From Dokdonia sp. Dokd-P16 (GTDB taxonomy: Bacteria; Bacteroidota; Bacteroidia; Flavobacteriales; Flavobacteriaceae): DNA of 64,000 nucleotides. Numbering within the stretch: the first letter of the stretch is position 1; each line of letters starts with the position of its first letter. The stretch lies in NCBI RefSeq assembly GCF_003095655.1, contig NZ_CP029151.1, positions 991,001-1,055,000 on the forward strand, written 5' to 3'. Under the pieces are notes generated by a model that saw nothing but the letters and a program-made list of their open reading frames with translations, was not told where the DNA came from and did not search any database. The translations under genes and the position numbers were made by a program. Of the stretch, positions 224 to 64,000 are shown piece after piece.

Positions 224-257
224 AATTGGTTACGCTTTCGCGAAAGCGTAACCAATT
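224..257. repeat. 34-bp perfect palindrome built on the iterated GCTTTCGCGAAAGC core
   Basis: The core at 234-247 is extended on both sides by complementary flanks (AATTGGTTAC and its complement), giving perfect dyad symmetry over 34 bases. It starts seven bases after the stop of the A-type carrier gene. As RNA it would fold into a 15-16 bp stem and might end or attenuate the upstream transcript, but the run of T after it is short. Confidence 0.85.
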
Positions 258-271
258 TAAAACATATTACA

Positions 272-303
272 GTTTTCTTGATGACACCCTAGGACAAGAA
301 AAC
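272..303 (+). promoter_or_regulatory. 9-bp inverted repeat upstream of sufB
   Basis: GTTTTCTTG at 272-280 is perfectly complementary to CAAGAAAAC at 295-303, with a 14-base spacer. It lies 66-98 bases before the sufB ATG. It could be a leader hairpin or a regulator site (suf operons are commonly controlled by iron or Fe-S status), but no known operator consensus was recognised. Confidence 0.4.
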
Positions 304-369
304 TAGCATACCACGAAAAGTCAACCTTAGGGCAGGAATACTTTTCTATCACACATTGAAAAAAGAAAC

Positions 370-1815
370 ATGGCATATACTGAAGATGATTTAAGGGAAG
401 AACTAAAAACCAAAGAATACGAATATGGTTTTTTTACAGACATTGAGTCTGAAACATTTCCTGTAGGTTTAAATGAAGACATTATACGAGCTATTTCTAA
501 GAAAAAGGATGAGCCGCAATGGATGACTGAGTGGAGACTTGAGGCATACAAGGTTTGGCTATCTATGGAAGAGCCAGACTGGGCAAACGTAAATTACGAG
601 AAGCCAGATTTTCAAGCAATCGCTTATTACTCTGCTCCCGTAGCTGTAGACCCTAATAAAACACTAGATGACGTAGATCCAGATCTACTCGCTATGTATA
701 AGAAATTAGGAATCTCTGTAGATGAGCAAAAGAAAATGAACAACGTCGCGATGGATATCGTGGTAGATTCTGTTTCTGTAGCAACTACCTTTAAAAAGAC
801 GCTTGCAGAGAAGGGAATTATTTTCATGAGTATCTCTGAGGCTATAAAAGAGCACCCAGAATTAGTACGTAAGCACTTAGGAACTATCGTTCCTGTAAAA
901 GACAATTACTATGCAGCATTAAACAGCGCAGTATTTTCTGATGGCTCTTTCTGTTATATTCCTAAAGGTGTAAAATGTCCGATGGAACTTTCTACTTACT
1001 TCCGTATTAATCAAGGAGGAACTGGACAGTTTGAAAGAACATTACTTGTAGCAGACGAAGGTAGTTATGTAAGTTACCTTGAAGGTTGTACTGCTCCTAG
1101 TCGTGATGAGAATCAACTGCATGCTGCCGTTGTAGAACTGATCGCAATGGATGATGCAGAGATTAAATATAGTACCGTACAAAACTGGTACCCTGGTAAT
1201 GCAGAAGGAAAAGGTGGGGTTTACAACTTTGTAACAAAGCGTGGTCTTTGCGAGAAGAATGCAAAAATCTCATGGACACAAGTAGAAACAGGATCTGCAG
1301 TAACATGGAAATACCCTTCTTGTATTCTTAAAGGTGATAACTCTATAGGTGAGTTTTACTCTATCGCCGTGACAAACAATCACCAGCAGGCAGACACAGG
1401 TACTAAGATGATCCACCTTGGAAAAAACACCAAGAGTACAATCATATCAAAAGGTATCTCTGCAGGAAAATCTCAGAACTCATATAGAGGTCTTGTAAAG
1501 ATTAACGCAGGAGCGACAAACGCTCGTAACTTCTCCCAGTGTGATTCATTATTAATGGGTAACGAGTGTGGAGCACACACTTTCCCATACATTGAGACTA
1601 AAAATAAAACTGCTCAAGTAGAGCACGAAGCAACTACTAGTAAGATAGGTGAAGACCAAATCTTTTACTGCAACCAGCGCGGTATTGATACAGAAAAGGC
1701 AATTGCTTTAATTGTAAACGGATTCTCAAAAGAGGTACTTAACAAACTCCCTATGGAGTTTGCTGTAGAAGCTCAAAAATTACTTGAGATTAGTCTAGAA
1801 GGATCTGTAGGATAG
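370..1815 (+). CDS. sufB: Fe-S cluster scaffold subunit SufB
   Basis: This 481-residue protein has the length and sequence of SufB, the scaffold subunit of the cytoplasmic SufBCD complex on which Fe-S clusters are assembled from SufS/SufE-derived sulfur. Recognisable blocks include [20 protein letters not shown] near the middle and the conserved C-terminal [10 protein letters not shown] block, whose cysteine (about residue 434) corresponds to the sulfur-accepting cysteine of SufB. The ATG start matches the normal SufB N-terminus. It lies 152 bases after the A-type carrier and opens a co-directional run to sufD, although two unrelated genes separate it from sufC. No truncation or motif loss is seen. 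Confidence 0.97.
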
Positions 1816-1859
1816 TATTTATCAATACAATTAAACTGTAAACCAAGATTATCACAACA

Positions 1860-2747
1860 ATGAAAAATATATTATTAATTGCCGCTCTTGCCATCACTAC
1901 AATCTCTTGTGAAGAATTCAAGAAAGGATATGAAGATGGAAAGCAAAAAGCAGAAGATCGTAGAGAAACAGCTGCTATAAATAAATCACCAAAGGTAACT
2001 TTATATAAACTAGACGGTGGTACTGTAATGGCAAATAACTTAAACTTATTTGCACAAGGCGACACGTACAAAGGAGAATCAAAGGAGCTTGCAGATGCAT
2101 TTTTTGTAATCAAGCACCCTAAAGGAACTCTTTTATGGGATACCGGTTTACCTGAAATGCTAGTAGGTCAAGAACCATATACTCCAGAAGGAGGTGCTTT
2201 TACCATTACTCGCAAAGACTCTATAACAACCCAACTTAAAGGTATCGGGATGACTCCTGAGGATATCGATATGATTGCGTTTTCTCACATTCATTTTGAT
2301 CACACAGGTGCTGCAAATCATTTTGCAAAAGCTACGTGGTTAGTTCAAGAATCAGAATATGATTTTGCACATGGAGAAGATATCAAAGGAAATTCGTTTT
2401 ATGCGCCAGATAGCTTTAACAAGCTTACAAACGTAGAAAAACTGAATGGAGAGAAGGATGTTTTTGGAGATGGCACGGTGGTAATAAAATCTATGCCAGG
2501 ACACACACCAGGACACCAAGTATTGTTCTTACGTTTAAAGGATAATGGACCAACGCTATTATCTGGAGATATCTATCATTTTGAGCAAAACCGCAAGGAT
2601 GCGATTGTACCTCAGTTTAACTACGATATCCCAGCAACGGAGGAAAGTATAAAGGACTTTGAAGCTTTCGCGAAAGCGGAAAATGCAAAAGTAATTATCC
2701 AGCATGATGCAGGAAACTTTGCACAAACACCAGCGACACTTAATTAA
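1860..2747 (+). CDS. Metallo-beta-lactamase-fold hydrolase lipoprotein (lactonase-like), inside the suf operon
   Basis: This 295-residue protein begins with a lipoprotein signal (ITTISC, Cys17 as the lipidated residue), so it should be membrane-anchored outside the cytoplasm. The metallo-beta-lactamase ligands are complete: H143-x-H145-x-D147-H148 in SHIHFDHTG, H215 in PGHTPGHQ, D237 in SGDIYH and H282 in IIQHDAG. The overall pattern resembles the AHL-lactonase-like subgroup rather than true beta-lactamases; the substrate is unknown. It sits 44 bases after sufB and 3 bases before the next lipoprotein gene, interrupting the usual sufB-sufC adjacency. Residues 269-273 (AFAKA) are encoded by a copy of the iterated palindrome. 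Confidence 0.85.
   Translation: MKNILLIAALAITTISCEEFKKGYEDGKQKAEDRRETAAINKSPKVTLYKLDGGTVMANNLNLFAQGDTYKGESKELADAFFVIKHPKGTLLWDTGLPEMLVGQEPYTPEGGAFTITRKDSITTQLKGIGMTPEDIDMIAFSHIHFDHTGAANHFAKATWLVQESEYDFAHGEDIKGNSFYAPDSFNKLTNVEKLNGEKDVFGDGTVVIKSMPGHTPGHQVLFLRLKDNGPTLLSGDIYHFEQNRKDAIVPQFNYDIPATEESIKDFEAFAKAENAKVIIQHDAGNFAQTPATLN
2664..2677. repeat. Iterated palindrome copy (in MBL-fold gene)
   Basis: Exact 14-bp core, read in frame as Ala-Phe-Ala-Lys-Ala near the C-terminus of the metallo-hydrolase. Confidence 0.9.
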
Positions 2748-5465: not shown

Positions 5466-6680
5466 ATGCTAGACGTTAATAAAATACGCAAAGATTTCCC
5501 TATTCTCAAACGAGAAGTAAATGGAAATCCGCTTATTTATTTTGATAATGCCGCCACTTCACAAACACCACAAGTGGTGATAGATGCTATTGTAGACTAC
5601 TACTCAAACTATAATGCAAATATCCATCGCGGCGTACACTCACTTTCTCAAGAAGCAACAGATGCTTATGAGGAGGCTCGTATTACAATTCAAAAGCATT
5701 TTAACGCAGCAAAGCCTTACGAGATTATTCTCACTGCAGGAACCACACATGCTATTAATCTTGTGGCACATGGTTTTGCCTCCATACTCAAAGAAGGTGA
5801 AGAGATTTTAGTTTCGGCGCTAGAGCATCACAGTAATATTGTACCGTGGCAAATGCTTTGTGAGAAAACTGGAGCTATCCTTAAAGTAATACCTCAGACA
5901 GAAAGTGGTGAACTGGACATGGACGCTTTCGCGAAAGCGTTATCTCCTAATTTAAAGTTAGTTTTTGTAAACCATGTATCTAATGCCTTAGGAACGATAA
6001 ATCCTATCAAGCATATCATTGACGAAGCTCATAAAGTAGGCGCTGCCGTACTTATTGATGGCGCACAAGCTACGCCACACATCAAACCAGATGTACAAGC
6101 ACTAGACGCCGACTTCTACGTATGTTCTGCTCATAAAATTTGCGGTCCTACTGGAGTGGGAATTCTCTACGGAAAAGAAGAATGGCTTACTAAATTACCT
6201 CCTTATCAAGGTGGTGGCGAGATGATAGATCAAGTAAGTTTTGAAAAAACCACTTATGCTGGTTTACCTCACAAATTTGAAGCAGGAACGCCTAATATTT
6301 GTGGAGGAATTGCAACGGCTGCAGGTCTTGATTATATGAATGCTATAGGTTTTGATAATATCGCTAGCTATGAAGATGAGCTATTACAATACGGAACAGA
6401 GAAATTACTAGAAATAGAAGGTCTCAAAATTTATGGCACTTCTGCACACAAAACGGCCGTTATTTCATTTAATGTGGGCAATATTCATCCTTATGACATA
6501 GGGACTATACTTGATAAACTAGGTATTGCTGTACGTACAGGTCATCATTGTGCACAGCCTATTATGGAGTATTATAAAATACCAGGAACCGTGCGCGCTT
6601 CTTTTTCATTTTATAATACCAAGGAAGAAATAGACACCTTTGTAACTGGATTAAAACGAGCGGTCACCATGCTCTCGTAA
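5466..6680 (+). CDS. sufS: Cysteine desulfurase SufS
   Basis: This 404-residue PLP enzyme takes sulfur from L-cysteine and passes it as persulfide to SufE. The PLP lysine is K224 in CSAHKICGPTG, the stacking His is H121 in LEHHSNIVPW, and the active cysteine is C362 in RTGHHCAQP, the short-loop arrangement of group II (SufS-type) desulfurases. ATG at 5466 gives the usual N-terminus; an earlier ATG at 5461 is out of frame. It has its own promoter and leads a second suf transcript toward sufE. Residues 154-158 (AFAKA) derive from a full 18-bp copy of the iterated palindrome, in a helix that varies between SufS proteins. Confidence 0.97.
   Translation: MLDVNKIRKDFPILKREVNGNPLIYFDNAATSQTPQVVIDAIVDYYSNYNANIHRGVHSLSQEATDAYEEARITIQKHFNAAKPYEIILTAGTTHAINLVAHGFASILKEGEEILVSALEHHSNIVPWQMLCEKTGAILKVIPQTESGELDMDAFAKALSPNLKLVFVNHVSNALGTINPIKHIIDEAHKVGAAVLIDGAQATPHIKPDVQALDADFYVCSAHKICGPTGVGILYGKEEWLTKLPPYQGGGEMIDQVSFEKTTYAGLPHKFEAGTPNICGGIATAAGLDYMNAIGFDNIASYEDELLQYGTEKLLEIEGLKIYGTSAHKTAVISFNVGNIHPYDIGTILDKLGIAVRTGHHCAQPIMEYYKIPGTVRASFSFYNTKEEIDTFVTGLKRAVTMLS
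5923..5940. repeat. Iterated palindrome copy (in sufS), full 18-mer
   Basis: ACGCTTTCGCGAAAGCGT, read in frame as part of Asp-Ala-Phe-Ala-Lys-Ala-Leu. Confidence 0.92.
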
Positions 6681-8164: not shown

Positions 8165-8251
8165 ATTACAAATTACGCTTGCGCGAAAATGTGATGCAAT
8201 TCACCATTATTAACTAAATAAAAGAGACTGCATTGCAGTACCACAACACAT

Positions 8252-8633: not shown

Positions 8634-9143
8634 ATGGCAGAAGAAATCATAAATAGAGTTGCCGGAAGTAAACTCATCACTTTTGATTTGGAAGATTTAT
8701 ATCCCAAAGGAAAGAGAGAAACACTAGACATTTCTGAATGGCTAGACCAAGGTTTTATTTTACGTGAAACTCAGTTTCGCGAAAGCATAAAAAATCACGA
8801 TTGGCAGCAATATTCAGGCTCATTTGTAGCGCTACATTGCAGCACAGATGCTATTGTTCCAGCATGGGCATATATGCTTGTTTCTACCCAATTACAAGAT
8901 ATTGCACAAAAGACCATCGTAGGATCTCTAGAGCTTCTAGAAACTATTCTATACATCGCAGCTATTGCAAATCTTGACACGACACCTTATCAAGGTGCTC
9001 CTTTGATAATAAAGGGATGCTCTAATAAACCAGTGCCTCCTAACGCATACTTACTGCTTATAGAAAAACTACAACCTGTGGCACGCAGTATTATGTTTGG
9101 AGAAGCTTGCTCTACTGTACCTCTCTTTAAAAAGCGCGCTTAA
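8634..9143 (+). CDS. DUF2480-family protein
   Basis: This 169-residue soluble protein matches the Bacteroidota DUF2480 family (EEIINRVAGSKLITFDLEDL at the N-terminus, SEWLDQGFILRE, WAYMLV, and a C-terminal GCSNKPVPPNAY). The biochemical role is unknown. Conserved linkage to suf genes in flavobacteria suggests a connection with Fe-S metabolism; this is inference. The segment QFRESIKN (about residues 48-55) contains a one-mismatch copy of the iterated palindrome (8773-8786), read in the Arg-Phe-Arg-Glu-Ser frame. Gene start 14 bases after the terminator is consistent with a separate transcript. Confidence 0.9.
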   Translation: MAEEIINRVAGSKLITFDLEDLYPKGKRETLDISEWLDQGFILRETQFRESIKNHDWQQYSGSFVALHCSTDAIVPAWAYMLVSTQLQDIAQKTIVGSLELLETILYIAAIANLDTTPYQGAPLIIKGCSNKPVPPNAYLLLIEKLQPVARSIMFGEACSTVPLFKKRA

Positions 9144-12257: not shown

Positions 12258-12275
12258 ACGCTTTCGCGAAAGCGT
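12258..12275. repeat. Iterated palindrome copy (intergenic), full 18-mer
   Basis: Lies between tRNA-Pro(GGG) and the metallophosphoesterase gene, 28 bases past the tRNA. The symmetry extends one more base on each side. Confidence 0.92.
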
Positions 12276-14705: not shown

Positions 14706-14719
14706 GCTTTCGCGAAAGC
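14706..14719. repeat. Iterated palindrome copy (intergenic)
   Basis: Exact core in the 75-base spacer between nfu and the reductase gene on the minus strand, so it is transcribed within the operon. Confidence 0.9.
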
Positions 14720-17300: not shown

Positions 17301-17975
17301 TTACTTAACTCTAAATTTAATATAAGTAATTGGTTTTCCTTGTTCTAGATATTGTTTTTCGTAAAAAGTTTGAATACCTACCACTTCCTTAGGAGAATAT
17401 TCATTCTTGTATACATTATGATTTGCCTCTAAAATCTCGTGACCTTCACCGTGAAGTAGTCCTAGGGTATATCCATGCATAAACTCAGAGTCTGTTTTTA
17501 AGTTTACACACCCATCTGGTTTAAGCACACGCTTATACTTTTGGAGAAACTCCGTATTAGTCATTCTGTGTTTTGTACGCTTGTACTTAATTTGAGGATC
17601 TGGAAAAGTAATCCATATTTCATCTATTTCCGCTTTCGCGAAAGCGTGCTCTATCAACTCAATTTGCGTACGCATAAAACCTACGTTAGTCAAGTTATCT
17701 TCGATAGCGGTTTTTGCTCCTCTCCAAAAACGGGCACCTTTGATGTCAATACCTACAAAGTTTTTATCTGGATATGATTGTGCAAGACCCACAGAATATT
17801 CCCCCTTACCACAGCCTAGCTCGACCACAATAGGGTTATCATTCTTAAAAAAGTCCTTATTCCATTTACCCTTTAATGGGAATGTACCATCTACGAGTTC
17901 TTCTCTCGTAGGTTGTACTACATTTGAAAAAGTCTCATTTTCTCTAAAACGCTTAAGCTTATTTTTACTTCCCAC
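17301..17975 (-). CDS. trmB: tRNA (guanine-N7-)-methyltransferase TrmB
   Basis: This SAM-dependent enzyme methylates G46 of tRNA. From the GTG at 17975 it has 224 residues and starts GSKNKLKRF, as in flavobacterial homologues; a frame extension to 18074 would run over the divergent gene and its promoter. The SAM site is VVELGCGKGEYSVG (50-63), followed by NFVGIDIKGARFWRGAK, and the substrate motif is FPDPQIKYKRTKHRM. Residues 111-115 (AFAKA) come from an iterated palindrome copy, placed between the SAM-binding strand and FPDP. Confidence 0.93.
   Translation of the reverse strand: MGSKNKLKRFRENETFSNVVQPTREELVDGTFPLKGKWNKDFFKNDNPIVVELGCGKGEYSVGLAQSYPDKNFVGIDIKGARFWRGAKTAIEDNLTNVGFMRTQIELIEHAFAKAEIDEIWITFPDPQIKYKRTKHRMTNTEFLQKYKRVLKPDGCVNLKTDSEFMHGYTLGLLHGEGHEILEANHNVYKNEYSPKEVVGIQTFYEKQYLEQGKPITYIKFRVK
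17631..17646. repeat. Iterated palindrome copy (in trmB)
   Basis: Exact 16-bp CGCTTTCGCGAAAGCG, read on the minus strand as Ala-Phe-Ala-Lys-Ala. Confidence 0.9.
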
Positions 17976-18031
17976 AGGTATATTTAATGTTTTGGTAAAA
18001 TTAAGGAAACTTTTAGTAGTTAGAAGTGTTA

Positions 18032-18039
18032 GATATTTG
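18032..18039 (+). promoter_or_regulatory. Possible -7 element for the glycosyltransferase gene
   Basis: GATATTTG has one mismatch from TAnnTTTG. If used, the transcript would start about at the GTG at 18044. Confidence 0.35.
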
Positions 18040-18043
18040 CATT

Positions 18044-21083: not shown

Positions 21084-21103
21084 GTACGGGTAGATATGTT
21101 TTA

Positions 21104-21111
21104 TATCTTTG
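21104..21111 (+). promoter_or_regulatory. Bacteroidota -7 element for the LuxE-type gene
   Basis: TATCTTTG is an exact match, 17 bases before the ATG at 21129. It lies inside the longer reading frame that starts at 21096, which shows that the longer start is wrong. Confidence 0.65.
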
Positions 21112-21128
21112 CACAAACACTATTCTCA

Positions 21129-22106
21129 ATGCCCCAACAGTCTATTTTTGATATCACTACAGCTCCACAATTTGAAGAAGCTGCTCTGGAGACATTTCGT
21201 TTTCAATTTGAGAATAATAGCACTTACAGATCTTTTTGTGACTTGCTATACAAACACCCTAGTGAGATAAAAAGAAGTAGAGATATTCCTTTTTTACCTA
21301 TTCAATTTTTTAAATCGCATACCATTCTCACATCTGGATCAGAGACTTCGGTTGTTTTTAGTAGTAGTGGGACTACGGGGAGCATCACTAGCAAGCACCA
21401 CGTTGCAGACTTGAGCTTGTATGAGGATAGTTTTAGGCACGCTTTCGCGAAAGCGTATGGAAACCCAAAAGATTATGTAATCCTAGCATTACTACCTTCC
21501 TATCTAGAAAGATCTGGATCTTCCCTCATATATATGGTGGATGACTTAATAAAGACTAGCGAACACCCTGACAGTGGTTTTTATTTAAACAACCTCAACG
21601 AACTTGCAAATAAACTAGACTCACTAGACAAGGCAGGGCAAAAAGTATTACTTATAGGTGTGTCGTTTGCGCTATTAGACTTGGTAGAATCTCACCGCTT
21701 TAACCTCAAGAATACTATCATAATGGAAACTGGTGGTATGAAAGGACGTCGCAAAGAATTAGTGCGTAATGAGCTGCATGAAATACTTTGCAAAGGCTTT
21801 GGCGTAAGTTCAATACATAGTGAATATGGGATGACTGAGTTATTGAGTCAAGGCTATTCTAATGGAAAAGGAATATTTACCACGCCTCCGTGGATGAAAG
21901 TATATACTCGAGATACAGAAGATGCACTAAGCTTACTAGAAGGCACAAAAACCGGTGGCCTCAATGTAATTGACCTAGCAAATAGATTTTCTTGCCCATT
22001 TATAGCAACTCAAGATCTTGGACGAGTATACAAGGATGGGAGCTTTACCGTAATAGGCCGTTTTGACAACTCAGACATACGCGGCTGTAACCTGATGTCC
22101 CTGTAA
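21129..22106 (+). CDS. LuxE/PaaK-family acyl-protein synthetase
   Basis: This 325-residue protein resembles the LuxE-type acyl-protein synthetases of the ANL superfamily. It carries the phosphate loop VVFSSSGTTGSITSKH, the block IIMETGGMKGRRKELVR, the conserved SEYGMTELLSQGY and the terminal GRFDNSDIRGCNLMSL. LuxE activates a fatty acid as acyl-AMP and takes it on a cysteine. No luxC, luxD or luciferase gene is nearby, so this is an orphan; flavobacteria commonly carry one and its substrate is unknown. AFAKA (residues about 104-108) is encoded by an 18-bp palindrome copy. Confidence 0.85.
   Translation: MPQQSIFDITTAPQFEEAALETFRFQFENNSTYRSFCDLLYKHPSEIKRSRDIPFLPIQFFKSHTILTSGSETSVVFSSSGTTGSITSKHHVADLSLYEDSFRHAFAKAYGNPKDYVILALLPSYLERSGSSLIYMVDDLIKTSEHPDSGFYLNNLNELANKLDSLDKAGQKVLLIGVSFALLDLVESHRFNLKNTIIMETGGMKGRRKELVRNELHEILCKGFGVSSIHSEYGMTELLSQGYSNGKGIFTTPPWMKVYTRDTEDALSLLEGTKTGGLNVIDLANRFSCPFIATQDLGRVYKDGSFTVIGRFDNSDIRGCNLMSL
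21439..21456. repeat. Iterated palindrome copy (in LuxE-type gene), full 18-mer
   Basis: Read in frame within His-Ala-Phe-Ala-Lys-Ala-Tyr. Confidence 0.92.
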
Positions 22107-24045: not shown

Positions 24046-24134
24046 AAAAGAAGCATGTGACCATGGCTATTGTTTCTCTTAAAAAGACAAATGACGTATG
24101 CAGTTCATTTTATTAAGAATTAACTCATGAGATG

Positions 24135-24142
24135 TATCTTTA
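24135..24142 (+). promoter_or_regulatory. Probable -7 element for the SDR gene
   Basis: TATCTTTA has one mismatch and lies 4 bases before ATG 24147, which implies a very short leader and argues against the in-frame ATG at 24132. Confidence 0.45.
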
Positions 24143-24146
24143 CCAT

Positions 24147-30200: not shown

Positions 30201-30218
30201 ACGCTTTCGCGAAAGCGT
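30201..30218. repeat. Iterated palindrome copy (intergenic), full 18-mer
   Basis: Located between the divergent DUF3050 and aspS genes; symmetry extends to 22 bases (30199-30220). Confidence 0.92.
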
Positions 30219-34783: not shown

Positions 34784-34791
34784 CAAATTTA
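34784..34791 (-). promoter_or_regulatory. Bacteroidota -7 element for the GHMP kinase gene
   Basis: The minus strand reads TAAATTTG, an exact match that overlaps the mvaD stop, 25 bases before the ATG. It may be an internal promoter. Confidence 0.4.
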
Positions 34792-39652: not shown

Positions 39653-39696
39653 GAGTTTAAATTTCAGGCAGAGGAAGTACAATTATGTAATCTAAC

Positions 39697-44826: not shown

Positions 44827-47800
44827 TTGAAACAGGTTTTTACATTCATAGCTTTAATGTTCTTCATATTTTCATGTAAGAACAAAAAAACAGATGCAAG
44901 ATTTACACTTAAAACAGATTCAGGAATCACATTCATAAATGACTTATCTCCTGACTCAGATTTAAATATCTTAAACTACCTCTACTATAATAACGGAGCA
45001 GGTGTAGCCACTGGAGATTTTGATAATGATGGATTAATAGATATTTACTTTACTTCAAATCAAGGACCTGATAAGCTATATCACAATCAAGCTAATCTCA
45101 CTTTCAAAGATATTACAGCACAAGCTAGCATCTCTAATGATACTGGCTGGACCACAGGTGTAACTACCGTAGACATAAACAACGATGGCTTATTAGATAT
45201 CTATATATCCAAAGTAGCTGGTCACCTCAAGCTTGAAGGACATAATCTTCTTTATGTTAATCAAGGTCTCAAAAATGGCCAACTTACCTTTAAAGAGGAA
45301 TCAAAAAAATACCAATTAAATCTATCTGGATTATTTACCCAATCTGCATTTTTTGATTATGATAATGATGGTGATCTCGACGCCTATATTATGGGGCATT
45401 CGTTATATCCCAATGCATATTTTGGACGTGGAAGTCAGCGTACAAAAATAGATAGTATTAATGGCGACAAACTATTAGAGAATCGAGATGGTGTTTTTAT
45501 AGACGTTTCCGCGAAAGCGAATATATTTTCATCTAGAATAGGTTACGGACTGGGACTTGCCATAAGCGACATAAACAATGATGGTTATCCTGACATTTAT
45601 ATAGGTAATGATTTCTTTGAAGACGACTATCTATACATAAATCAGACGGATGGAACATTTAAGGAGGTAAACACTAGAGAAGGGAAACTAGGACACACTA
45701 GCCATTTTTCTATGGGTAATGATATTGCAGATGTCAATAATGATGGTCTTACCGATATTCTATCTGTAGATATGCTACCAGAAGATCTAAAAACTTTAAA
45801 ATCATCTGGAACGGAATTTAATTTCCCTATTTTCCAAAATCAGTTACGTCAAGGATATCAACCTCAATTTATGCAAAACACCTTGCATATTAATCAAGGG
45901 AAAGAACAATTTTCTGAAACTGCTTTTCTAAGTGGTATTTCAAGTACAGAATGGAGCTGGTCTCCCCTACTAGCAGATTTTGATAACGATGGTGATAAAG
46001 ACATCTATATCACCAATGGTATTGTGGGTGCAACAAATGATATGGATTTTATAAATTTTATATCAAATGAAAATATTCAAAAAAGAATAGGCAGTCGCAT
46101 GACTGATAAAGAGCTTCCGCTATTAGAAGAAATTCCACAAAAGAAAACGTCCAATTATTTCTTCTCAAATAATGGTGATGGCACATTTAGGAACACCTCA
46201 AAGTCGTGGATAAAGAGTACTACCTCCTTTAGTAACGGAAGTAGTTATGCAGATTTAGATAACGATGGCGATCTAGATCTCATCGTAAATAACGTAAATG
46301 AACAAGCGTATCTCCTAGAAAACAGAACCCAACAATTAAAAGATAGTGTGCATTATCTAAAAATTCGTTTTAAAGGATCTCCACAAAATACCTTGGGTAT
46401 AGGAGCAAAAGTTCATGCATACACCTCAACAGACTATCAATATTTTGAAAACTATACTACGAGAGGCTACTTGTCTTCTATTGCGCCCGAGTTATCAATT
46501 GGTTTAGGAGAACACAAGAGTATCGATTCGCTCACTGTTATATGGCCGGACGGTAAACTACAAACTTTACAAAATATAAAAGCAGATCAACTAATCACAC
46601 TTTCTTCTATTGCATCTTCTAAGGTTCCTTTTACAAAAAGAGAGCATATAAAAGAACAAAAAACGGATAGCCTTATCCCATTTAAACATCAAGATAACGC
46701 AACACTAGAATTCAGCAGAAATCCACTTGTGCCTTATGCATCTACTAATCTAGGTAAAGCTATTGCAACAGGAGATTTAAATAACGATGGACTTGATGAT
46801 ATAATCGCTCTGGGTTCAAAAAAGCAACAATCCACTACTTATATTCAAAAACCTTCAGGTACCTTTAGAGAACTAAAACTTCCTAAGAGCAAGGAGCATC
46901 AAATACATGAGGACATTAATGCTGTCATTGCAGATGTAAATGGTGATTCTTTCAACGACTTAATTATGGTAAGCGGTGGAAATGAAATAAAATCTGGTAA
47001 ACCCCTTCACCCGCGGTTATATATTAACAATGGAACATCATTCACCTATGATGAAGCTGCATTTTCAGATATAGCAGTAAATGCGTCTACCGTAAAAACC
47101 ATAGATATCGATAATGATGGAGATCTTGATATATCTATAACGAGTGATGTGGTTCCTCAACAATTTGGCACAACTCCACTCCAATATATTCTTGAGAATA
47201 ATGGAAAAGGTGTTTTTAAGGATGTAACTGCACAATACAGCACTTCTTTTCAGCGTATAGGAAACGTGCGAGATATTCAATGGATAGATATAGATAATAA
47301 TGGATATGAGGATGCCGTGGTTATAGGTCACTGGATGTCTCCTGTAATTTTTCTTAATGATGGAACTAAGCTTACAAAACAAGATAATAATGGATTAGAA
47401 GCGTCTACAGGGTGGTTCAATTCATTGAAAGTAGCAGATTTTGATAATGATGGAGATTTAGATATCATTGCTGGGAACTGGGGACTTAATTCAAGGCTTA
47501 CTGCTTCTGCAAATCAACCGTTACAGTTTTATATTCAGGACTTTGATAGTAATGGAAGCTTAGACCCTATTGTAACATATTATTATCAAGGAGAAGAAAC
47601 TACGATTGCAACAAAGGATGAACTCGTAAAACAGCTACCTCAACTTAATAAGAAATATTTATCTTATAACGCTTTCGCGAAAGCGAGATTTAAAGAAATA
47701 CTACCTGAAGACAAATTGAAAGAAGCTCAAGTAAAATCTATCACAACACTTGCCTCCATGTATTTTGAGAATGATGGAGACAATAGATTTACAGCACATG

Positions 47801-48111: not shown

Positions 48112-48116
48112 ACTTT

Positions 48117-51455: not shown

Positions 51456-51458
51456 TTC

Positions 51459-54400
51459 ATGAAGTGGGGAGTTCTATTAGTTCTGTGTTATCTGCTCACT
51501 GGTTGTACTAATCAACCAGCACAAGAAGCGCCTGCATTATTTTTAAACCCTACAAGCACGAGTACTGGAATCACTTTTTCAAACAATCTCACAGAAACAG
51601 ACAGTCTCAATATACTCGACTACTTGTACTTCTATAATGGTGGTGGCACTGCTGTAGGAGATATTAACAATGACGGGTTGCCAGACATCTATCTCTCTGG
51701 AAACCAAGTAAAAAATAAGCTCTACCTCAATAATGGCGACCTTACATTTAATGATATCTCGGCTAGTGCTGGCGTAGAAGGCAAAAGCTCTTGGAGTACT
51801 GGTGCAATAATGTTTGACGCAAACTCAGATGGACTGTTAGATATCTATGTGCGTGCCGTAGTAGGCATAAATGATTTCCAGGGACACGACGAGCTCTTTA
51901 TAAATAATGGCGATAAGACCTTTACAGAGCGTGCTGCAGAGTTTGGCCTTGCTTTTCAAAATTATGGAACCACTGCCGCCGTTCTTGATTATGATAAAGA
52001 TGGTGATCTCGACTTATATATACTCAACCATGCGGTACATACAGAATCCTCATTTGGACATGCCGATTTACGCCTAGAACGCAACGAATTTACGGGAGAC
52101 AAGCTTCTTAGAAATGACGGAAATACCTTTACAGATGTCAGTGAAGAAATGGGCATTTATGGCGGTATTAATGGTTATGGGCTCGGTATTTCTATTGCAG
52201 ATTTTAATCAGGATGGTTATCCAGATATTTACGTAGGTAATGATTTTCATGAGGATGACTATTACTATATCAATAAAGGAGGATTACGCTTTCGCGAAAG
52301 CTTAAAAGAGCAATTCCCACATACCTCAAGATTTTCAATGGGTAATGACGTAGCCGATATTAATCATGATGGTTTTCCTGATCTCATGTCGCTAGATATG
52401 TTACCAGAAGACGAGAACGTCCTAAAGGCATCCGAAGGTGATGATAATATACAGACACAGAAACTGCGTACAGAACGTTTTGGTTACCACTACCAGTTTA
52501 CTCGTAATATGTTATTTATAAATCAGCCAGGGTATCAATTTCAAGAACGAGCGCTCTCCTCTGGAGTTGCTGTGACAGACTGGAGTTGGAGTGCTCTCTT
52601 TGCAGATTTTAATCAAGATGGTAATCAAGACTTATTTATTTCAAATGGTATCCCAAAACGCCCTAATAATCTTGATTTTATTAATTTCATTTCTAGCGGT
52701 AAGATTCAAAACAGGCTCAACGAGACTAGGCTTTTAGATAACGAAGCTCTTAATCTTATGCCTAACGGTGCTTCACATAATTATGTCTACCAAGGAAGTA
52801 AAGACCTCGTATTTACAGACCAATCTGGAGTATGGATTGACAAAAAACCTACGGTGTCTGGCGCATCTGCGCTTGCAGATCTTGATAATGATGGAGATCT
52901 TGATGTCGTTGTTAATAACATCAATCAAGAGGCAACTATCTACGTGAACCAAACTGATACTACCGCAACCTACCTAAAATTAAAATTTGAGTATTCTAAG
53001 GATAATTCGCTAGGTATAGGCACTAAGGTTTTTGCATATCAAAATGGAGCCTTACAATATAAAGAATTATACACTGCACAAGGATTTCAGGCATCCTCTG
53101 AGCCTATTGTTCACTTTGGTTTTAAAAAGAATACTTCAATAGACTCACTTCGTATTATTTGGCCAGATAACAAGCAGCAAGTGCTATACGATATCCCTAC
53201 AAATCAAACATTATCCTTATCACCAAAAAATACAACCGCTTTTGACTATAGTTCGCTTCAAATAAAAAGCAAGCCGCTATTTACTAAAGTAGCAGGAAAT
53301 CTAGGTATAGACTATGTACACAAGGAGGATGCCTATATAGATTTTAACAGGCAGCAATTAATACCTTATCAGATATCTGACCGTGGTCCTGCAACGACAA
53401 TTGGTGATATAAATGGTGATGGTATTGAAGACGTCTACTTTGGAAGTTCTAAGTTTACACCTTCAGCCGTGTATACTGGAGGAAATAACGCTTTCGCGAA
53501 AGCGTACTCAGCCCCACTAAAATCTCTTTCAAAAACTGAAGATGTCGCGGCTACTATCATAAATAATGAAATTATTATAGGTACAGCAGGAGGTGATTTT
53601 TCTGAAGTGAACGAGGCTTTAGAAAACTATTATTTAAAAGTATCAGACACCTTAACCTTGGAGATGTCAGGCATACGAGCTAACACCTCAATCATTATCG
53701 CAAGCGACTATGATCAAGATGGAGATGAAGATTTATTTGTAGGCAATTATGCCGTTACGGGTGACTTTGGAAAAGTTCCTGCATCGTTTCTTTTAAAGAA
53801 TGATGGAGGTAAGTTTGTCAAAGATCAAGACAACCCTCTAGGCAAGATAGGCATGGTTACAGATGCCGTCTGGACAGATTTAAATAACGATGGCGCCGAA
53901 GATTTAATTGTCATAGGAGAATGGATGCAGCCACTTTTTTACAAAAATGAAGATGGCATTCTTAACAAAGAAGAAGTACTAGACGCTACGCTCAATGGTT
54001 TATGGCAAAGAATACAACCGTTTGATATGGATCATGATGGTGATATGGATTACCTTCTTGGCAACTGGGGAACAAACAGTAAGTTTACAGCATCTCCAGC
54101 GTTTCCCATGACAATGTATTATTCAGACTTTGATAATAATGGGCAAACAGAAACTGTTGTTACTACGGCAAAAGAAGGAAACTACTACCCTATTCAAAAT
54201 CTTCAAGAGCTAGGAGCTCAACTTGTATTTCTCAAAAAGAAATATGCAAATAATAATGACTTTGCTGGAGATACCGTGTCCCAAATTTTTGGAGAAAGAG
54301 CACTCAATACCGCTCAGCGATTTGAAGTAAACACCTTAGCCTCCGGATATTTAAAAAATGAAAAAGGAATTTTTACTTTTGTACCTTTCACTGGTGAATT

Positions 54401-56956: not shown

Positions 56957-57526
56957 ATGTCTAACTTTTTTGATGACCAAGATTTTGAATCCATAGATTT
57001 TACCTTACAATCCTTTAAAAAAGGTGAGTATGACAATTGCACATTTACAGACTGTAACTTTGAAAATCTTCATGTCTCAAATACAAGCTTTCTAGAATGT
57101 ACATTCATAGATTGTAACCTTACTAATGTAAAATTTGGCGGCACCACTCTCAATCAAGTTATATTCGATTCGTGCAAGTTATTAGGCGCAGATTTCAGCG
57201 TTTGCCAGCCATTTATGTTAGATATACGCTTTCGCGAAAGCATACTACAGCTAGCAAATTTCACACAATTACCTTTAAAAGGAACATCTTTTACTTCTTG
57301 CCAAGTTACCGAGGTAGATTTTACTAGTGCAGATTTATCGCAGGCCACATTTACTGGATCAACATTGAGTAAAACCATCTTTGACAATACAAATCTTACT
57401 AAAGCAGATTTCATAGGGGCAATCGACTTTACTATTGACACTACAAATAACAATATGAAAGGTGCTATATTTTCTAAAGACAACTTGGAAGGACTCGTAA
57501 CACACTTACAACTCAATCTTAAGTGA
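56957..57526 (+). CDS. Pentapeptide-repeat protein
   Basis: The 189-residue cytoplasmic protein is made of A(D/N)LxX-type pentapeptide repeats: FTDCNFENLHVSNTSFLECT, GADFSVCQPF, DFTSADLSQATFTGSTLSKT, DNTNLTKADFIGA. The repeats give a right-handed square beta-helix like Qnr and MfpA, which mimic DNA and shield gyrase. It is shorter than Qnr (about 215 residues), and no loops characteristic of QnrB were recognised, so a gyrase role is only possible. An iterated palindrome encodes RFRES within the repeats. Confidence 0.87.
   Translation: MSNFFDDQDFESIDFTLQSFKKGEYDNCTFTDCNFENLHVSNTSFLECTFIDCNLTNVKFGGTTLNQVIFDSCKLLGADFSVCQPFMLDIRFRESILQLANFTQLPLKGTSFTSCQVTEVDFTSADLSQATFTGSTLSKTIFDNTNLTKADFIGAIDFTIDTTNNNMKGAIFSKDNLEGLVTHLQLNLK
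57226..57241. repeat. Iterated palindrome copy (in pentapeptide gene)
   Basis: Exact core with 5' AC extension, read as Ile-Arg-Phe-Arg-Glu-Ser; it fits the pentapeptide rhythm poorly, which suggests later insertion. Confidence 0.9.
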
Positions 57527-58378: not shown

Positions 58379-60670
58379 TTATGCTTTTACTGTTTGCTCA
58401 TTACCATTTACAATAATATCTAGCGCTTCTCCGCTCACAAGTGTAAATGCTGTCTCACTTTTATTGACCTCAACCTTAAGAATCTGTCCTCTAAAGTTTA
58501 CTTTAAAAGAATAAGCTTCCCATGCGTCTGGAATTTTAGTTTCAAAAGATAGTGTGTCATTTTTAACTCGCATTCCTCCAAAGCCTTCTACTACGCTCTG
58601 CCAGGTTCCAGCCATACTCGTGATATGTAAACCTTCTTCTACTTCTTTATTGTAATCATCTAGATCAAGTCTTGATGTACGCAAGTAGAATTCGTAAGCC
58701 TGGTCCATTCTTCCAAGTTTAGCTGCTTGTATAGCATGCACACATGGCGACAGCGAACTTTCATGTACCGTAAATGGTTCATAGAAATCAAAGTGCTTTT
58801 CTAGATTTTCCTGAGTAAAATGATCTTCAAAAAAGTAAAAGCCTTGTAACGTGTCTGCTTGTTTAATATACGGCGAACGCAAGATGCGATCCCAAGACCA
58901 TTTTTGATTAATAGGTCGGTTGGATTTTGGTAAATCTGCTACAGTGATTAATTCTTTATCTAAGAAGCCATCTTGTTGCAAGAATACGTCATGCTCTTCA
59001 GAATATGGGAAATACATCTGTTCTGCCGTAGATTTCCAAGAGAGCATCTCGTCGTAAGACAGATGAGTTTTACCAGATATACGTGACCAGTCTTGCTTTT
59101 GAGTATCTCTTATCAATTCTGCTTTCGCAAAAGCGAACTCCATACACCACTTTGCGATATAGTTTGTAAACCAGTTATTGTTTACATTATTTTCATATTC
59201 ATTAGGCCCTGTAACTCCTAGAATCACATAGGCATTCTTAGCCTTAGAAAAAGTTGCTCGCTGTCTCCAGAAACGTGCCACAGCTATAATCACTTCTAGC
59301 CCCATTTCTGGAATATAAGTAGTATCGCCTGTGTAACGCTCATAGTTATAAATAGCATATACCATAGAGCCATTGCGGTGTATCTCCTCAAAGGTAATCT
59401 CCCACTCGTTATGACACTCTTCCCCGTTCATTGTGACCATAGGGTATAATGCAGCACCTCCTGAGAAGCCTAGCTTCTCTGCATTCTCAATAGCTTTATC
59501 CAGCTGATTATAACGATAGGTGAGTAACTGCCTAGCTACTTGTTGATCCTTAGTTGCCATGTAAAAAGGTATACAATATGCTTCCGTATCCCAATAAGTT
59601 GATCCTCCATACTTCTCACCTGTAAATCCTTTTGGACCTATATTAAGGCGGCTATCTTGTCCCGTATATGTTTGATTGAGATGAAAGATATTAAAGCGTA
59701 TACCTTGTTGCGCCTTTACGTCACCATCTATAGTAATATCAGACATTTCCCAGGTCTTCGCCCACACCTCCTTTTGAAATTGTTGTAACGCATCAAAACC
59801 AACTGCAGCTGCTTCATTAATTACAGTCGTAGCAGCGTTTACAAGATTATCTTGCTCATGATTAAGGCTACTTACATATCCTCCTAATTTATGAATACTA
59901 AACGTTTCTCCTTGAGAGATTTCTGTTTCATAAACATGCCCAATATATGTTTCTGTAGTATTAGTACGCTTTCGCGAAAGCGCAACCTTTCTACCATCTA
60001 TATTAAAGCTATTATGCATCATAGTGCACACATGAAACTCTGTCTTCATGGTGTGTGCCGTGATAAAAGCCATATCACCATCTTCTGAAACCTCTAGCGT
60101 GTTCCAAAACTTATCATCCCAATTAGAATCTTCATTAGTTATGCCGCTATCTAAATATGGTTCATAACTTATAGTTGCATCTTTATTAATAGGTGTTACT
60201 TCGTAGTTAATAGCACCTAGCTCATCCATTTTCATGCTCAAAAAGCGAGTAGACTTTACTGTAATATCTACATCATTTTGTAAGGTCGCATTAAAGCTTC
60301 TGTACAATACACCGCTTTTCATATCAAGTTCGCGACGGAAATCTTTTACCTCTTTACACGTATGTAAATCTAGGCTCTCACCATTTACAGTCACTTTTAT
60401 ACCTATCCAGCTAGGAGCATTGAGCACTTTTGCAAAGTATTCTGGATATCCATTTTTCCACCAGCCTACACGAGTTTTATCTGGATAATAAACACCTCCT
60501 ATATAGCTTCCTTGAAAAGTTGCTCCGCTATAATCTTCTTCAAAATTTGCGCGTTGCCCCATGGCTCCATTTCCCAGTGCCATTAAACTCTCTGAAGATT
60601 TTATGTTATCTGGGTTCCATCCCTCTTCTATAATGGACCAACTATTTGGTGTGATATAATCTATATGCAT
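58379..60670 (-). CDS. GH65 maltose phosphorylase
   Basis: This 763-residue GH65 enzyme should split maltose with phosphate into glucose and beta-glucose 1-phosphate. The catalytic acid is E491 in GVTGPNEYENNVNNNW, and GEECHNEWEITFEEIHRNGS (417-436) is typical of maltose phosphorylases. The (alpha/alpha)6 barrel sits between an N-terminal beta domain and a C-terminal beta region. LSRKR at 231-235 comes from an exact palindrome; a one-mismatch copy (59121-59134) encodes FAFAKAE. Beta-phosphoglucomutase follows upstream, giving glucose 6-phosphate. Confidence 0.93.
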   Translation of the reverse strand: MHIDYITPNSWSIIEEGWNPDNIKSSESLMALGNGAMGQRANFEEDYSGATFQGSYIGGVYYPDKTRVGWWKNGYPEYFAKVLNAPSWIGIKVTVNGESLDLHTCKEVKDFRRELDMKSGVLYRSFNATLQNDVDITVKSTRFLSMKMDELGAINYEVTPINKDATISYEPYLDSGITNEDSNWDDKFWNTLEVSEDGDMAFITAHTMKTEFHVCTMMHNSFNIDGRKVALSRKRTNTTETYIGHVYETEISQGETFSIHKLGGYVSSLNHEQDNLVNAATTVINEAAAVGFDALQQFQKEVWAKTWEMSDITIDGDVKAQQGIRFNIFHLNQTYTGQDSRLNIGPKGFTGEKYGGSTYWDTEAYCIPFYMATKDQQVARQLLTYRYNQLDKAIENAEKLGFSGGAALYPMVTMNGEECHNEWEITFEEIHRNGSMVYAIYNYERYTGDTTYIPEMGLEVIIAVARFWRQRATFSKAKNAYVILGVTGPNEYENNVNNNWFTNYIAKWCMEFAFAKAELIRDTQKQDWSRISGKTHLSYDEMLSWKSTAEQMYFPYSEEHDVFLQQDGFLDKELITVADLPKSNRPINQKWSWDRILRSPYIKQADTLQGFYFFEDHFTQENLEKHFDFYEPFTVHESSLSPCVHAIQAAKLGRMDQAYEFYLRTSRLDLDDYNKEVEEGLHITSMAGTWQSVVEGFGGMRVKNDTLSFETKIPDAWEAYSFKVNFRGQILKVEVNKSETAFTLVSGEALDIIVNGNEQTVKA
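59967..59982. repeat. Iterated palindrome copy (in GH65 gene)
   Basis: Exact 16-bp copy, read in the third frame as Leu-Ser-Arg-Lys-Arg on the minus strand. Confidence 0.9.
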
Positions 60671-61422: not shown

Positions 61423-61477
61423 GTTATTTTCATGCCTATTGGTTTATGGATAAACCAATCGCTTTTGTGATTTTAAT

Positions 61478-61491
61478 TTTTCGCGAAAGCG
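61478..61491. repeat. Decayed iterated palindrome copy (intergenic)
   Basis: TTTTCGCGAAAGCG keeps one half-site and the center, in the gap between lacI and pgmB on the minus strand. Confidence 0.7.
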
Positions 61492-61494
61492 TTA

Positions 61495-62535
61495 TTATTT
61501 AATTCGCTTCGTACTCTCTCGTTCTACAAGACTCGTTTCTATATAAGCCGTTGTGTATTCCTCTATTTCCTCTTCTGGACGTTCTAATTTATTGATAAGA
61601 AGCTCTGCTGCCTTGCGTCCCATTTGTTCTCCGTGCTGGCTTACTGTAGTGAGGCTAGGTACAAAGTGCTGTGACAACTCACCATCTGAGAAGCTCACGA
61701 TACTCACATCTTCAGGTATGCTTTTGTCTGCCTCCATAATATATTTGGCAGCGGTCACAGCAAAAATTTCATTTATCGTAAATACACCATCTATGTCCTT
61801 CCCTTTTAAGAAATGTTTGATACGTGCTTTTGCCTTATCATTGAGCTCATCTATAGCATCTAGTTTTAAAATAAGATCTGGATCTATTTTTATACCTGCA
61901 GATTCTAATGCTTCTATGTAACCCTTTGTTCTTAATTTACCTATCGTTATATAGTCATCTGTAGTGATGATAGCTATTTTTTTACAGCCTGTTTTTATCA
62001 AGTGGTTTACGCCTAGCTTTGCTCCCTCGCGGTCATCTATAAGTACTTTGTCACAAGGTATCTCATCTACTACACGATCAAACATTACAACAGGCATTCC
62101 TTGATCAATAGCCTCTGTTAGGTGTCTAAAGTCGTCCTTTTGCATTGTTTCTTTTGATAAAGAAAGGATAAATCCATCTGTACTACCATTTGCGAGTAGC
62201 TCCATATTAAGGACCTCTTTATCAAAATCATTATTAGAAAGGGTGATAATCACATTGTAATTGTGCTCTCTCGCCATTTGCTCAACTCCACGTATTACAG
62301 TGGTAAAAAAGTGATGCACTATTTGCGGTATAATAATCCCGATAGTGCGTGTCTTCCTGTTTTTAAGACTTAACGCGATATTATTAGGCTTATAATTATA
62401 CAGCTTTGCAAAGGCTTTAATCTTCTGGCGTGTGTCTTCACTTATTTCTGCACTATCACGCAGTGCTTTTGAGACAGTAGAGATAGAAACATCAAGTTCT
62501 TTGGCAATTAATTTTAAGGTGAGTTTTCTTTTCAT
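61495..62535 (-). CDS. LacI-family transcriptional regulator
   Basis: The 346-residue regulator has an N-terminal LacI helix-turn-helix (LIAKELDVSISTVSKALRDS) and hinge (NNIALSLKNRKTRTIGIIIP), then a periplasmic-binding-protein-like effector domain (FDRVVDEIPCDKVLIDDREG; ISIVSFSDGEL-type). Its genes on both sides (pgmB, GH65, GH32) point to control of maltodextrin or fructan use, with a sugar as effector. The candidate operator TACGAAAACGAT lies 63 bases upstream and recurs at susC. Confidence 0.93.
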   Translation of the reverse strand: MKRKLTLKLIAKELDVSISTVSKALRDSAEISEDTRQKIKAFAKLYNYKPNNIALSLKNRKTRTIGIIIPQIVHHFFTTVIRGVEQMAREHNYNVIITLSNNDFDKEVLNMELLANGSTDGFILSLSKETMQKDDFRHLTEAIDQGMPVVMFDRVVDEIPCDKVLIDDREGAKLGVNHLIKTGCKKIAIITTDDYITIGKLRTKGYIEALESAGIKIDPDLILKLDAIDELNDKAKARIKHFLKGKDIDGVFTINEIFAVTAAKYIMEADKSIPEDVSIVSFSDGELSQHFVPSLTTVSQHGEQMGRKAAELLINKLERPEEEIEEYTTAYIETSLVERESTKRIK

Positions 62536-62597
62536 AATGGTATCGTAAAAATAGGCTTACTAAAAGCTATAGTACAATTTAAACAAATCCTTTTGGG

Positions 62598-62614
62598 TAC
62601 GAAAACGATGTATT
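62598..62614. promoter_or_regulatory. Candidate LacI-type operator in the lacI-GH32 intergenic region
   Basis: TACGAAAACGAT at 62598-62609 is the exact reverse complement of ATCGTTTTCGTA within the susC promoter; the other half-site (GTATT) is less conserved. Confidence 0.55.
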
Positions 62615-62741
62615 CTTAATAAGTTATTATATTTATTATCAAAATGTGAATTTTTGCTCTATTTTAGGATGTTTTAAATAGCATTTAGATCATTTTAAAT
62701 TAATCTACTTGTTCAATTTATGTCTAAAAACTAGTCAAAAC

Positions 62742-64000
62742 ATGAAGCAGCTTCTTATCATTCTTGCACTTTTTACTCTTATAGGTTGTAAAGAAAAAAC
62801 AACTCCTGTAAATGAAGTGGCAGTGGTAGAAGACCGCTTTCGCGAAAATTATCGCCCTCAATACCACTTCACTCCTCCCACAATGTGGATGAATGACCCT
62901 AACGGCCTCATATACCACAACGGCACTTATCACTTATTTTATCAGCATTACCCAGAAGACATTGTCTGGGGACCTATGCACTGGGGTCACGCCACCTCAA
63001 AAGACCTTATCTCTTGGGAGCACAAACCCATTGCCTTATATCCTGATGAGCTAGGTCTTATCTTTTCTGGTAGCGCTGTGATGGATATACATAACACCTC
63101 TGGCTTAGGGACAAAAGACAATCCTCCTATGGTTGCTATTTTCACCTATCACCTTATGGAAGGTGAAAAAGCAGGACGCAAAGATTTTCAAACTCAGGGT
63201 ATAGCTTATAGTCTAGATGAAGGTGAAACTTGGAAAAAATACAGTGGCAACCCTGTTATAAGTAATGACGGAAACATCAAAGACTTTAGAGATCCTAAAG
63301 TATTCTGGGATGAAAATACTGAGCAATGGGTGATGACACTTGTCGCTGGCGATCACGCCAAATTTTATAGTAGCCCAAATCTCAAATACTGGACTCTTAT
63401 GAGTGAGTTTGGAAAAAATATAGGGGCACATGGTGGAGTTTGGGAATGTCCCGATTTATTTCCATTACAGATTGCAGGAAGTGATGAGACAAAATGGGCA
63501 TTACTAATCAGTATAAACCCAGGAGCACCTAATGGAGGTTCTGGGACGCAATACTTCATTGGTGATTTTGATGGAACTACATTTACCCCAAATCAAACAG
63601 AAACAAAATGGCTAGATTATGGGACAGATAATTATGCTGGCGTCACATATAACGGCCTAGCAGATAATGACCGAACATTTATAGGATGGATGAGTAACTG
63701 GAACTATGCTAGAGATACACCTACAGAAGTATGGCGCAGTGCAATGACGCTTTCACGAAAGCTAACGCTTCATAAAAACGAAGAAAATGGATATTATTTA
63801 AAAAATTATCCTGTACCATCGATTGAAAATTACAATTATGATAAAGTGACACATGAAACAATGAATGATGGCATGTCACTTTCCAGTGATAATTATAATG
63901 AACAACGATTAGATTTTATAATTCCTGGAGAATTAGACACATTTACATTGACATTTTCTAATGCAAATAACGATTCTCTCAAATTTGGGTATAACGCTGA
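62742..64000 (+). CDS. GH32 fructan hydrolase lipoprotein, 3' truncated
   Basis: The frame is open from ATG 62742 to the window end (419 residues so far). It begins with a lipoprotein signal (LIGC, Cys16) and then has the three GH32 catalytic blocks: WMNDPNG with nucleophile D52, FRDPK with D184, and GGVWECPDLF with acid/base E235. WGPMHWGHATSKDLISW is also characteristic. The beta-sandwich module starts but is cut off. Levanase or inulinase activity on fructan is likely; specificity cannot be told. Copies of the palindrome at 62835-62848 and 63749-63762 are decayed. Confidence 0.93.
   Translation, partial: MKQLLIILALFTLIGCKEKTTPVNEVAVVEDRFRENYRPQYHFTPPTMWMNDPNGLIYHNGTYHLFYQHYPEDIVWGPMHWGHATSKDLISWEHKPIALYPDELGLIFSGSAVMDIHNTSGLGTKDNPPMVAIFTYHLMEGEKAGRKDFQTQGIAYSLDEGETWKKYSGNPVISNDGNIKDFRDPKVFWDENTEQWVMTLVAGDHAKFYSSPNLKYWTLMSEFGKNIGAHGGVWECPDLFPLQIAGSDETKWALLISINPGAPNGGSGTQYFIGDFDGTTFTPNQTETKWLDYGTDNYAGVTYNGLADNDRTFIGWMSNWNYARDTPTEVWRSAMTLSRKLTLHKNEENGYYLKNYPVPSIENYNYDKVTHETMNDGMSLSSDNYNEQRLDFIIPGELDTFTLTFSNANNDSLKFGYNA

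Follow-up and report, generated by a model that had tools for sequence, protein, structure and literature searches.

A 14-bp palindrome held at fixed places across genomes of Dokdonia and relatives, possibly as a self-DNA uptake mark

A 64,000-nucleotide stretch of the Dokdonia sp. Dokd-P16 chromosome (NZ_CP029151.1, positions 991,001 to 1,055,000; hereafter the window) carries 17 exact copies of GCTTTCGCGAAAGC, a perfect palindrome of 14 bp that is its own reverse complement. Certain hosts maintain this word as a site in duplex DNA, and its locations are preserved from one species to the next. What is its role? Comparison with the hallmarks of known uptake sequences leads us to favour, tentatively, a mark for the uptake or recombination of self-DNA that would be kept by molecular drive, over a site that organises the chromosome. 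Below, genomes with hundreds of copies are termed saturated, and their genera are labelled g1 (the genus of the window, probably Dokdonia), g11 and g210.

The genome of the window (G000; one contig, 3,623,447 bases) holds 808 exact copies, equal to 223 per Mb, ~0.22 per kb or one per 4.5 kb, and no copy of the reversed control word. A 464-kb sample of G000 contains 103 exact copies vs 0.001 expected under a motif-masked Markov-2 model, in line with the excess over chance claimed in an initial annotation of the window. With up to two mismatches allowed, the window gives 24 matches (mean 0.15 and maximum 2 in 100 dinucleotide-preserving shuffles) and the whole genome 1148, vs 20 for the control. 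Every coordinate that the initial annotation gave for the exact copies was verified, as was its statement that they lie both between genes and within unrelated genes (Table 1); that they lie “on both strands” is uninformative, since a perfect palindrome has no strand. Its decayed copies are present at 8773, 45505, 59121, 61477, 62836 and 63749, and the one placed near 8174 is GCTTGCGCGAAAAT at 8177, three mismatches from the word and aligned with an exact site in a relative. An additional decayed copy lies at 37180. The full 18-mer ACGCTTTCGCGAAAGCGT occurs just six times in the window.

Exact copies outnumber one-mismatch copies by 235 to 30 in 1.03 Mb drawn from seven saturated genomes, a set of partly overlapping stretches with 231 distinct sites that have full flanks. 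Nineteen of the 30 are altered in the first or last two bases, and none at the first two T of TTT or their partners. The inner decamer TTTCGCGAAA is found 136 times in the 464-kb sample, 103 times with both GC arms. The initial annotation had seen no shared flanks beyond the arm, which requires amendment: in intergenic copies the palindrome continues weakly to TTACGCTTTCGCGAAAGCGTAA (~22 bp), and the 3' flanks are poor in G out to ~+22. From +4 to +19, on both strands, G amounts to 8.0% vs 16.7% farther out (z -20, 231 distinct sites), and A and C are raised where G is depleted. None of five control palindromes is G-depleted in its flanks, and one has a G excess. The depletion is seen separately in G000, G016, G004, G010, G011 (9 sites) and G027 (7 sites), and is less clear in G230 (9 sites). 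Opposite flank bases show no covariation (absolute z < 2 at all 25 positions), and no symmetric double change stands beside 64 asymmetric ones, where ~1.7 symmetric would be expected by the number of words; this suggests that each half-site is read on its own, as a dimer would do.

The sites hold their places while the sequence around them diverges. Aligned by blastn, sites of the window are exact in 16 of 16 cases in G016 (77.2% identity), 16 of 16 in G003 (78.2%), 17 of 17 in G008 (87.8%), nine of 14 in G004 (74.1%, three more with one mismatch) and four of six in G010 (75.5%); control 14-mers are identical in 7.0, 8.4, 27.2, 3.2 and 4.3%, respectively. G016 and G003, being close to each other, do not count as independent cases. 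Smaller sets gave two of two exact sites in G011, one of two in each of G013 and G014, one of three in G017, two of two in G027 and three of three in Dokdonia MAG-19, and three of the four sites covered in G230 are exact at 68-73% identity. Among unsaturated genomes the figures are 0/1 (G029), 0/1 (G023), 0/2 (G024) and 0/2 (G026). Conservation holds in the reverse direction too, where the sites of relatives are exact in the window in 15 of 17 (G016), 15 of 16 (G003), seven of eight (G004), 17 of 17 (G008) and four of four cases (G010).

Genic copies arise by substitution, that is by point mutation, and not by insertion. Across 123 alignments with orthologs from motif-free loci there is no gap at the site (10 for site 2664, 57 for 5925, two for 17632 and 54 for the two-mismatch copy at 8773); 79 named loci were searched for 2664, 5925 and 8773 and eight for 17632, and only those with coverage of the site were kept. 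This agrees with the initial annotation that the word is not an insertion sequence or a miniature inverted-repeat transposable element (MITE), as motif-free genic orthologs align without gaps. The blastn alignment of site 5925 with G281 has a one-base gap. At site 17632 an unsaturated ortholog already encodes AFAK, and within g11 the site is exact in G027 and G281 and not in G433, a pattern consistent with parallel gain where the protein permits. The 121 genic sites of seven saturated genomes are read 73 times as GCT TTC GCG AAA GC and 22 and 26 times in the other frames.

Saturation is sharply confined. In a scan of 59 genomes, G000 included, all 18 genomes examined of genus g1 were saturated with 369-905 copies, the two lowest counts coming from genomes 78% and 85% complete. 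Among 397 genomes of the family, six had hundreds of copies (two of g1, three of g11 with 578, 664 and 609, and one of g210 with 408), 74 had 1-19 and 317 had none; among 395 genomes across the phylum G000 alone was saturated, and genomes outside the family had at most one copy each. A search of named genomes with the SufB protein, of which the best 80 loci were kept and from which records very near G000 may be missing, gave Dokdonia sp. isolate MAG-19 as the closest of these (98% identity); its locus has six exact copies in 16.6 kb and the other 79 have none. In a concatenated tree MAG-19 groups within G016/G003 of the window's genus. An 11-gene tree with much missing data places g210 (G230) beside g1 (split 99.7/100) and g11 with Tenacibaculum, Polaribacter and Lutibacter (92.8/74), so that either two gains or an old gain and many losses are needed; the tree of aspS alone is poorly resolved and does not unite g1. 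Separate lineages are saturated as if the reading specificity could be gained anew. No comparable lineage-specific iterated palindrome was found in thirteen small, partly orthologous pools of Flavobacteriaceae loci.

Unsaturated genomes show no clear trace of past saturation: with up to two mismatches allowed, G018, G023, G031 and G435 give counts near the control, and higher counts come from G091, G113, G116, G326, G361 and G184. The highest, G184, has 86 such words vs 20 for the control, nine of them exact, and those listed are scattered over contigs; it is possibly a decayed former carrier, or reflects an effect of composition. At least 120 stretches of viral contigs were matched, and four of the 80 listed hold 2-3 copies. 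One viral contig, L212 (IMGVR_UViG_2617271332_000001), has three exact copies in 11 kb and is perhaps a prophage of a saturated host.

Along the chromosome, copies avoid one another at short distances. Pairs less than 1 kb apart number six vs 18.3 expected in G000 (first 100 sites), two vs 16.3 in G016 (first 67), none vs 7.7 in G230 (first 58) and none vs 3.6 in the window, and the coefficient of variation of the spacing is 0.62 in G016, 0.72 in G230 and 0.49 in the window. One pair in G000, at 18915 and 19047, lies 132 bp apart upstream of a short lipoprotein-like open reading frame (ORF) and offers no lead. Copies are enriched 2.2-6.5-fold in non-coding DNA in seven genomes, on small numbers in four; in G000 the enrichment is ~3-fold (45 intergenic and 58 genic copies, or 43 and 60 with a slightly different gene call). 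Genic copies favour the 5' half of genes (74 of 121).

Under the uptake reading, the two half-sites would be read by a dimeric protein, and fragments that carry the site would be taken up or recombined preferentially from lysed kin. This bias, a molecular drive, would restore copies that had mutated and create further ones, so that no individual copy need help the cell, and copies would erode once transferred into other hosts. The hallmarks come from uptake signal sequences (USS) of Pasteurellaceae and DNA uptake sequences (DUS) of Neisseriaceae, as listed in the available parts of Redfield 2006 (PMC1626085). As far as those parts and the accessible text of PMC1939737 go, USS and DUS share with GCTTTCGCGAAAGC hundreds of near-invariant copies in which perfect ones outnumber those with one mismatch, copies that arise by substitution, an excess in non-coding DNA alongside many copies in genes, avoidance of close neighbours, a flank signal and presence across the genus (18/18 here). 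They are known from those two families, and GCTTTCGCGAAAGC is from Bacteroidota.

Several observations weigh against an uptake mark. USS and DUS are directional words of 9-10 bp, described in part of PMC1939737 as not palindromic, whereas GCTTTCGCGAAAGC is a palindrome of at least 14 bp; their density is put at about one per kb in the accessible part of PMC1626085, compared with ~0.22 per kb here. The 33 decamers without full arms in the 464-kb sample (0.42 expected) show that strictness is greatest in the inner ten bases. Spacing in G000 has a coefficient of variation of 1.07, not below random, with long empty stretches. A ComEC-like gene (PF03772) is present in all 32 genomes tested, equally in unsaturated ones, and so does not discriminate. 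The reading protein was not found, clade-specific genes not having been sought over whole genomes, and a narrow literature check found no report of natural transformation in Dokdonia. The 14-base match may itself seed the alignment, so that lost intergenic sites are possibly undercounted, a bias smaller for genic sites such as 2664, 5925 and 17632. A strongly selected intracellular binding site, moreover, would show most of the same features. Apart from this balance, two near-empty 20-kb stretches lie at the contig ends of G000 (L129, 3600001-3620000, with no site; L111, 1-20000, with two) and hold, from a reading of ORFs, genes of surface-protein-like character that are repetitive or very long, one of them encoding 3210 amino acids.

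Copies also occur on islands in other hosts. The 16 exact copies of G116, an unsaturated genome, and at least nine with one mismatch all lie in a single 78-kb stretch (G116:C3:32331-110029); the ratio of one-mismatch to exact copies, at least 9:16 vs 11:103 in the G000 sample (Fisher P 0.002), makes these copies in another genus look partly decayed. Stretches from G118, G127, G254, G376 and G029 carry copies among metal-handling genes, judged by their ORFs. Eight island proteins were compared with Pfam, which identified ACR_tran, OEP, multicopper oxidase, cation efflux, ArsP_1 and two P-type ATPases, of which one has heavy-metal domains; the Fur-like ORF among the eight had no match at 1e-10. 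Thirty-one copies from these stretches and that of G116 have the same G-poor flanks. Motif density on the metal-resistance islands (L331-L335, L298, L299, G116), which belong to several unsaturated flavobacterial genera, resembles that of saturated genomes. L331, L333 and L335 each have, within an outer-membrane efflux gene, two copies spaced by exactly 933 bp, and this distance recurs in G116, G141 and G200. We take the islands to have matured while in saturated hosts, and the mark to decay outside them; the recurring pair, like the island motifs, is a possible donor tag for transfer. The fuller proposal is that a further system for recognising self-DNA evolved on its own, with a palindrome as its mark: a dimeric reader whose specificity separate genera can acquire would have written the word hundreds of times into at least two lineages, and metal-resistance islands would carry it to other hosts, where it decays. 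This is put forward as conceivable and with more reserve than the uptake mark itself. To our knowledge no earlier self-DNA recognition system has been described in Bacteroidota, and none with a palindromic mark.

The chief rival, serious though on balance unlikely, is a chromosome-organising site: a dimeric nucleoid-associated, domain-forming or nucleoid-occlusion protein would occupy all ~800 copies, with selection on each site and on spacing. Dyad symmetry, strict conservation at fixed places, short-distance avoidance with a spacing of a few kb, and a slight flank modulation near 10-11 bp (significance not assessed), such as a duplex-bound protein might give, all suit it. So does the lack of bias relative to origin and terminus, a relation that the initial annotation had proposed to map: 20-kb samples hold four sites at a parS-like cluster and three and five near its antipode, with 4.5 expected. 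Against it, effective selection would be needed on each of ~800 sites; near-misses are few, an anomaly beside the relaxed consensus that the available part of PMC1626085 gives for sites of regulatory proteins; 14 of 15 saturated genomes tested lack a second ParB-domain hit, and no candidate protein was found. The nucleoid-binding protein of the initial annotation thus survives at this strength, and the methylation or repair motif that it offered beside it fares worse. Such a motif would resemble the highly iterated palindrome HIP1 of cyanobacteria (GCGATCGC), and the whole would be maintained by a methyltransferase or an enzyme of repair that acts on an inner part of it. The likeness that the initial annotation drew is sound in so far as both are highly iterated palindromes across related genomes, and the presence of HIP1 tracks methyltransferases (PMC4390886, accessible part). 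HIP1, however, is an octamer found around 500-2500 times per Mb (same source and part), whereas GCTTTCGCGAAAGC is longer and less frequent, and its inner 6-mer is not enriched alone: TCGCGA outside the decamer occurs 34 times vs ~31 expected in the 464-kb sample. What is enriched is the long word, which gives no support to an origin from a short methylase site, and we regard this explanation as improbable.

Lower still stands a structured element, be it a hairpin or cruciform, an RNA element, a bidirectional terminator or a small mobile palindrome of the MITE, repetitive extragenic palindrome (REP) or Rickettsia palindromic element (RPE) type. The word is a perfect palindrome and partly intergenic, and the alignment at intergenic site 14706 is gapped in several genomes, intergenic alignments being too poor to judge insertion with empty sites. 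The lack of flank covariation and of symmetric double changes argues against structure, as does the absence of gaps at genic sites; of the 38 intergenic sites flanked by a gene on each side, just five have convergent neighbours, and an Rfam search of the window returned two tRNAs and nothing else. All this leaves such an element very improbable. Least probable is the suggestion of the initial annotation that a ParB/Noc-type protein, evolved from ParB, binds here. The word is a dispersed palindrome with TTTC and GAAA half-sites, as that idea would have it. In the parS and Noc consensus, however, these half-sites are 4 bases apart and not 2, and parS lies near the origin in few copies per chromosome, in contrast to ~800 copies of GCTTTCGCGAAAGC. 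A ParB helix-turn-helix (HTH) domain gave one full-scoring hit in each of 32 genomes tested; a second, weak hit as from a dedicated paralogue was found in one of 15 saturated genomes and five of 17 others, a search that a relative without the HTH domain would escape. The second proteins, from open frames of ~600-616 amino acids, occur in G029 (C18:76370), G010, G034, G113, G184 and G435; that of G029 is close to a motif-bearing island and is perhaps part of an integrative element. G000 has, besides, a separate cluster of three parS-like sites (1-2 mismatches) within ~3 kb at 1.337-1.340 Mb, which likely marks its origin. By count such sites are not above the control (three vs two); what sets them apart is that they cluster, as they do in several relatives. 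Transposon-like insertion, hairpin or cruciform, terminator, short methylase site and ParB/Noc paralogue were thus each tested and rejected or weakened.

Table 1. Copies of the palindrome in the window, with the genes around them and the state of aligned sites in relatives
Position	Copy	Location	Aligned sites
234..247	exact	intergenic, upstream of sufB; palindrome continues 10 bases further each side	exact in 8 loci of relatives, also in G281
2664..2677	exact	metallo-beta-lactamase-fold gene (1860-2747), frame A-F-A-K-A	exact in G016, G003, G004, G017, G230
5925..5938	exact	sufS-like aminotransferase gene (5466-6680)	exact in G230; one mismatch in G004, G017; absent in G281, G433
8177	3 mismatches		exact in G016
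8773..8786	2 mismatches	DUF2480 gene (8634-9143)	exact in G017, G433
12260..12273	exact	intergenic, after tRNA-Pro(ggg)	
14706..14719	exact	intergenic	several relatives without it, alignment gapped
17632..17645	exact	trmB-like methyltransferase gene (17301-18074, minus strand)	exact in aligned g1 loci, G230, G281, G027; not in G433
21441..21454	exact	LuxE-like gene (21096-22106)	
24276..24289	exact	NAD-dependent epimerase-like gene (24132-25142)	
30203..30216	exact	intergenic, upstream of aspS (30319-32076)	
35159..35172	exact	mevalonate-diphosphate decarboxylase-like gene (34789-35871, minus strand)	
37772..37785	exact	HI0933-like gene (36976-38247, minus strand)	
39558..39571	exact	alpha-amylase-like gene (38210-39682, minus strand)	
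47671..47684	exact	FG-GAP/UnbV_ASPIC gene (44827-48111)	
52288..52301	exact	FG-GAP/UnbV_ASPIC gene (51459-54698)	
53490..53503	exact	second copy in FG-GAP/UnbV_ASPIC gene 51459-54698	
57228..57241	exact	pentapeptide-repeat gene (56957-57526)	
59121..59134	1 mismatch	glycosyl hydrolase 65 gene (58379-60670, minus strand)	
59968..59981	exact	glycosyl hydrolase 65 gene (58379-60670, minus strand)	
63749..63762	1 mismatch		exact in G016, G003

Three consecutive ORFs of 1079-1112 amino acids fill positions 44827-54698 of the window, and the first and third encode FG-GAP/UnbV_ASPIC proteins by Pfam.

No description of GCTTTCGCGAAAGC was found in a literature search whose scope left out most subscription journals and all bioRxiv preprints, and the word itself is printed in none of the papers covered. 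Queries on palindromic iterated or uptake sequences in Bacteroidetes or Flavobacteriaceae and on DNA methylation in Dokdonia gave none among the matches listed, and the string “palindrom” occurs 0 times in the Dokdonia PRO95 genome paper (PMC3587595). The decamer appears most often in PMC8034619, in the accessible part of that paper, within words absent from the human genome; other papers that print it look unrelated by their titles and the opening of their abstracts.

Genome-wide dispersed, strictly conserved words are rare, and the significance even of HIP1 is described as still little known in the available part of PMC4390886. GCTTTCGCGAAAGC is a longer and cleaner case, with ~800 letter-perfect sites, a sharp contrast between saturated and unsaturated genera and a defined flank signature, and the mobile islands amount to natural decay experiments. 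As an uptake mark, the word would mean that such specificity evolved a further time, beyond the families in which we know it; as a chromosome-organising site, it would reveal a new global DNA-binding protein in a marine genus. Under either reading, the motif could identify the donor when DNA moves horizontally among flavobacteria.

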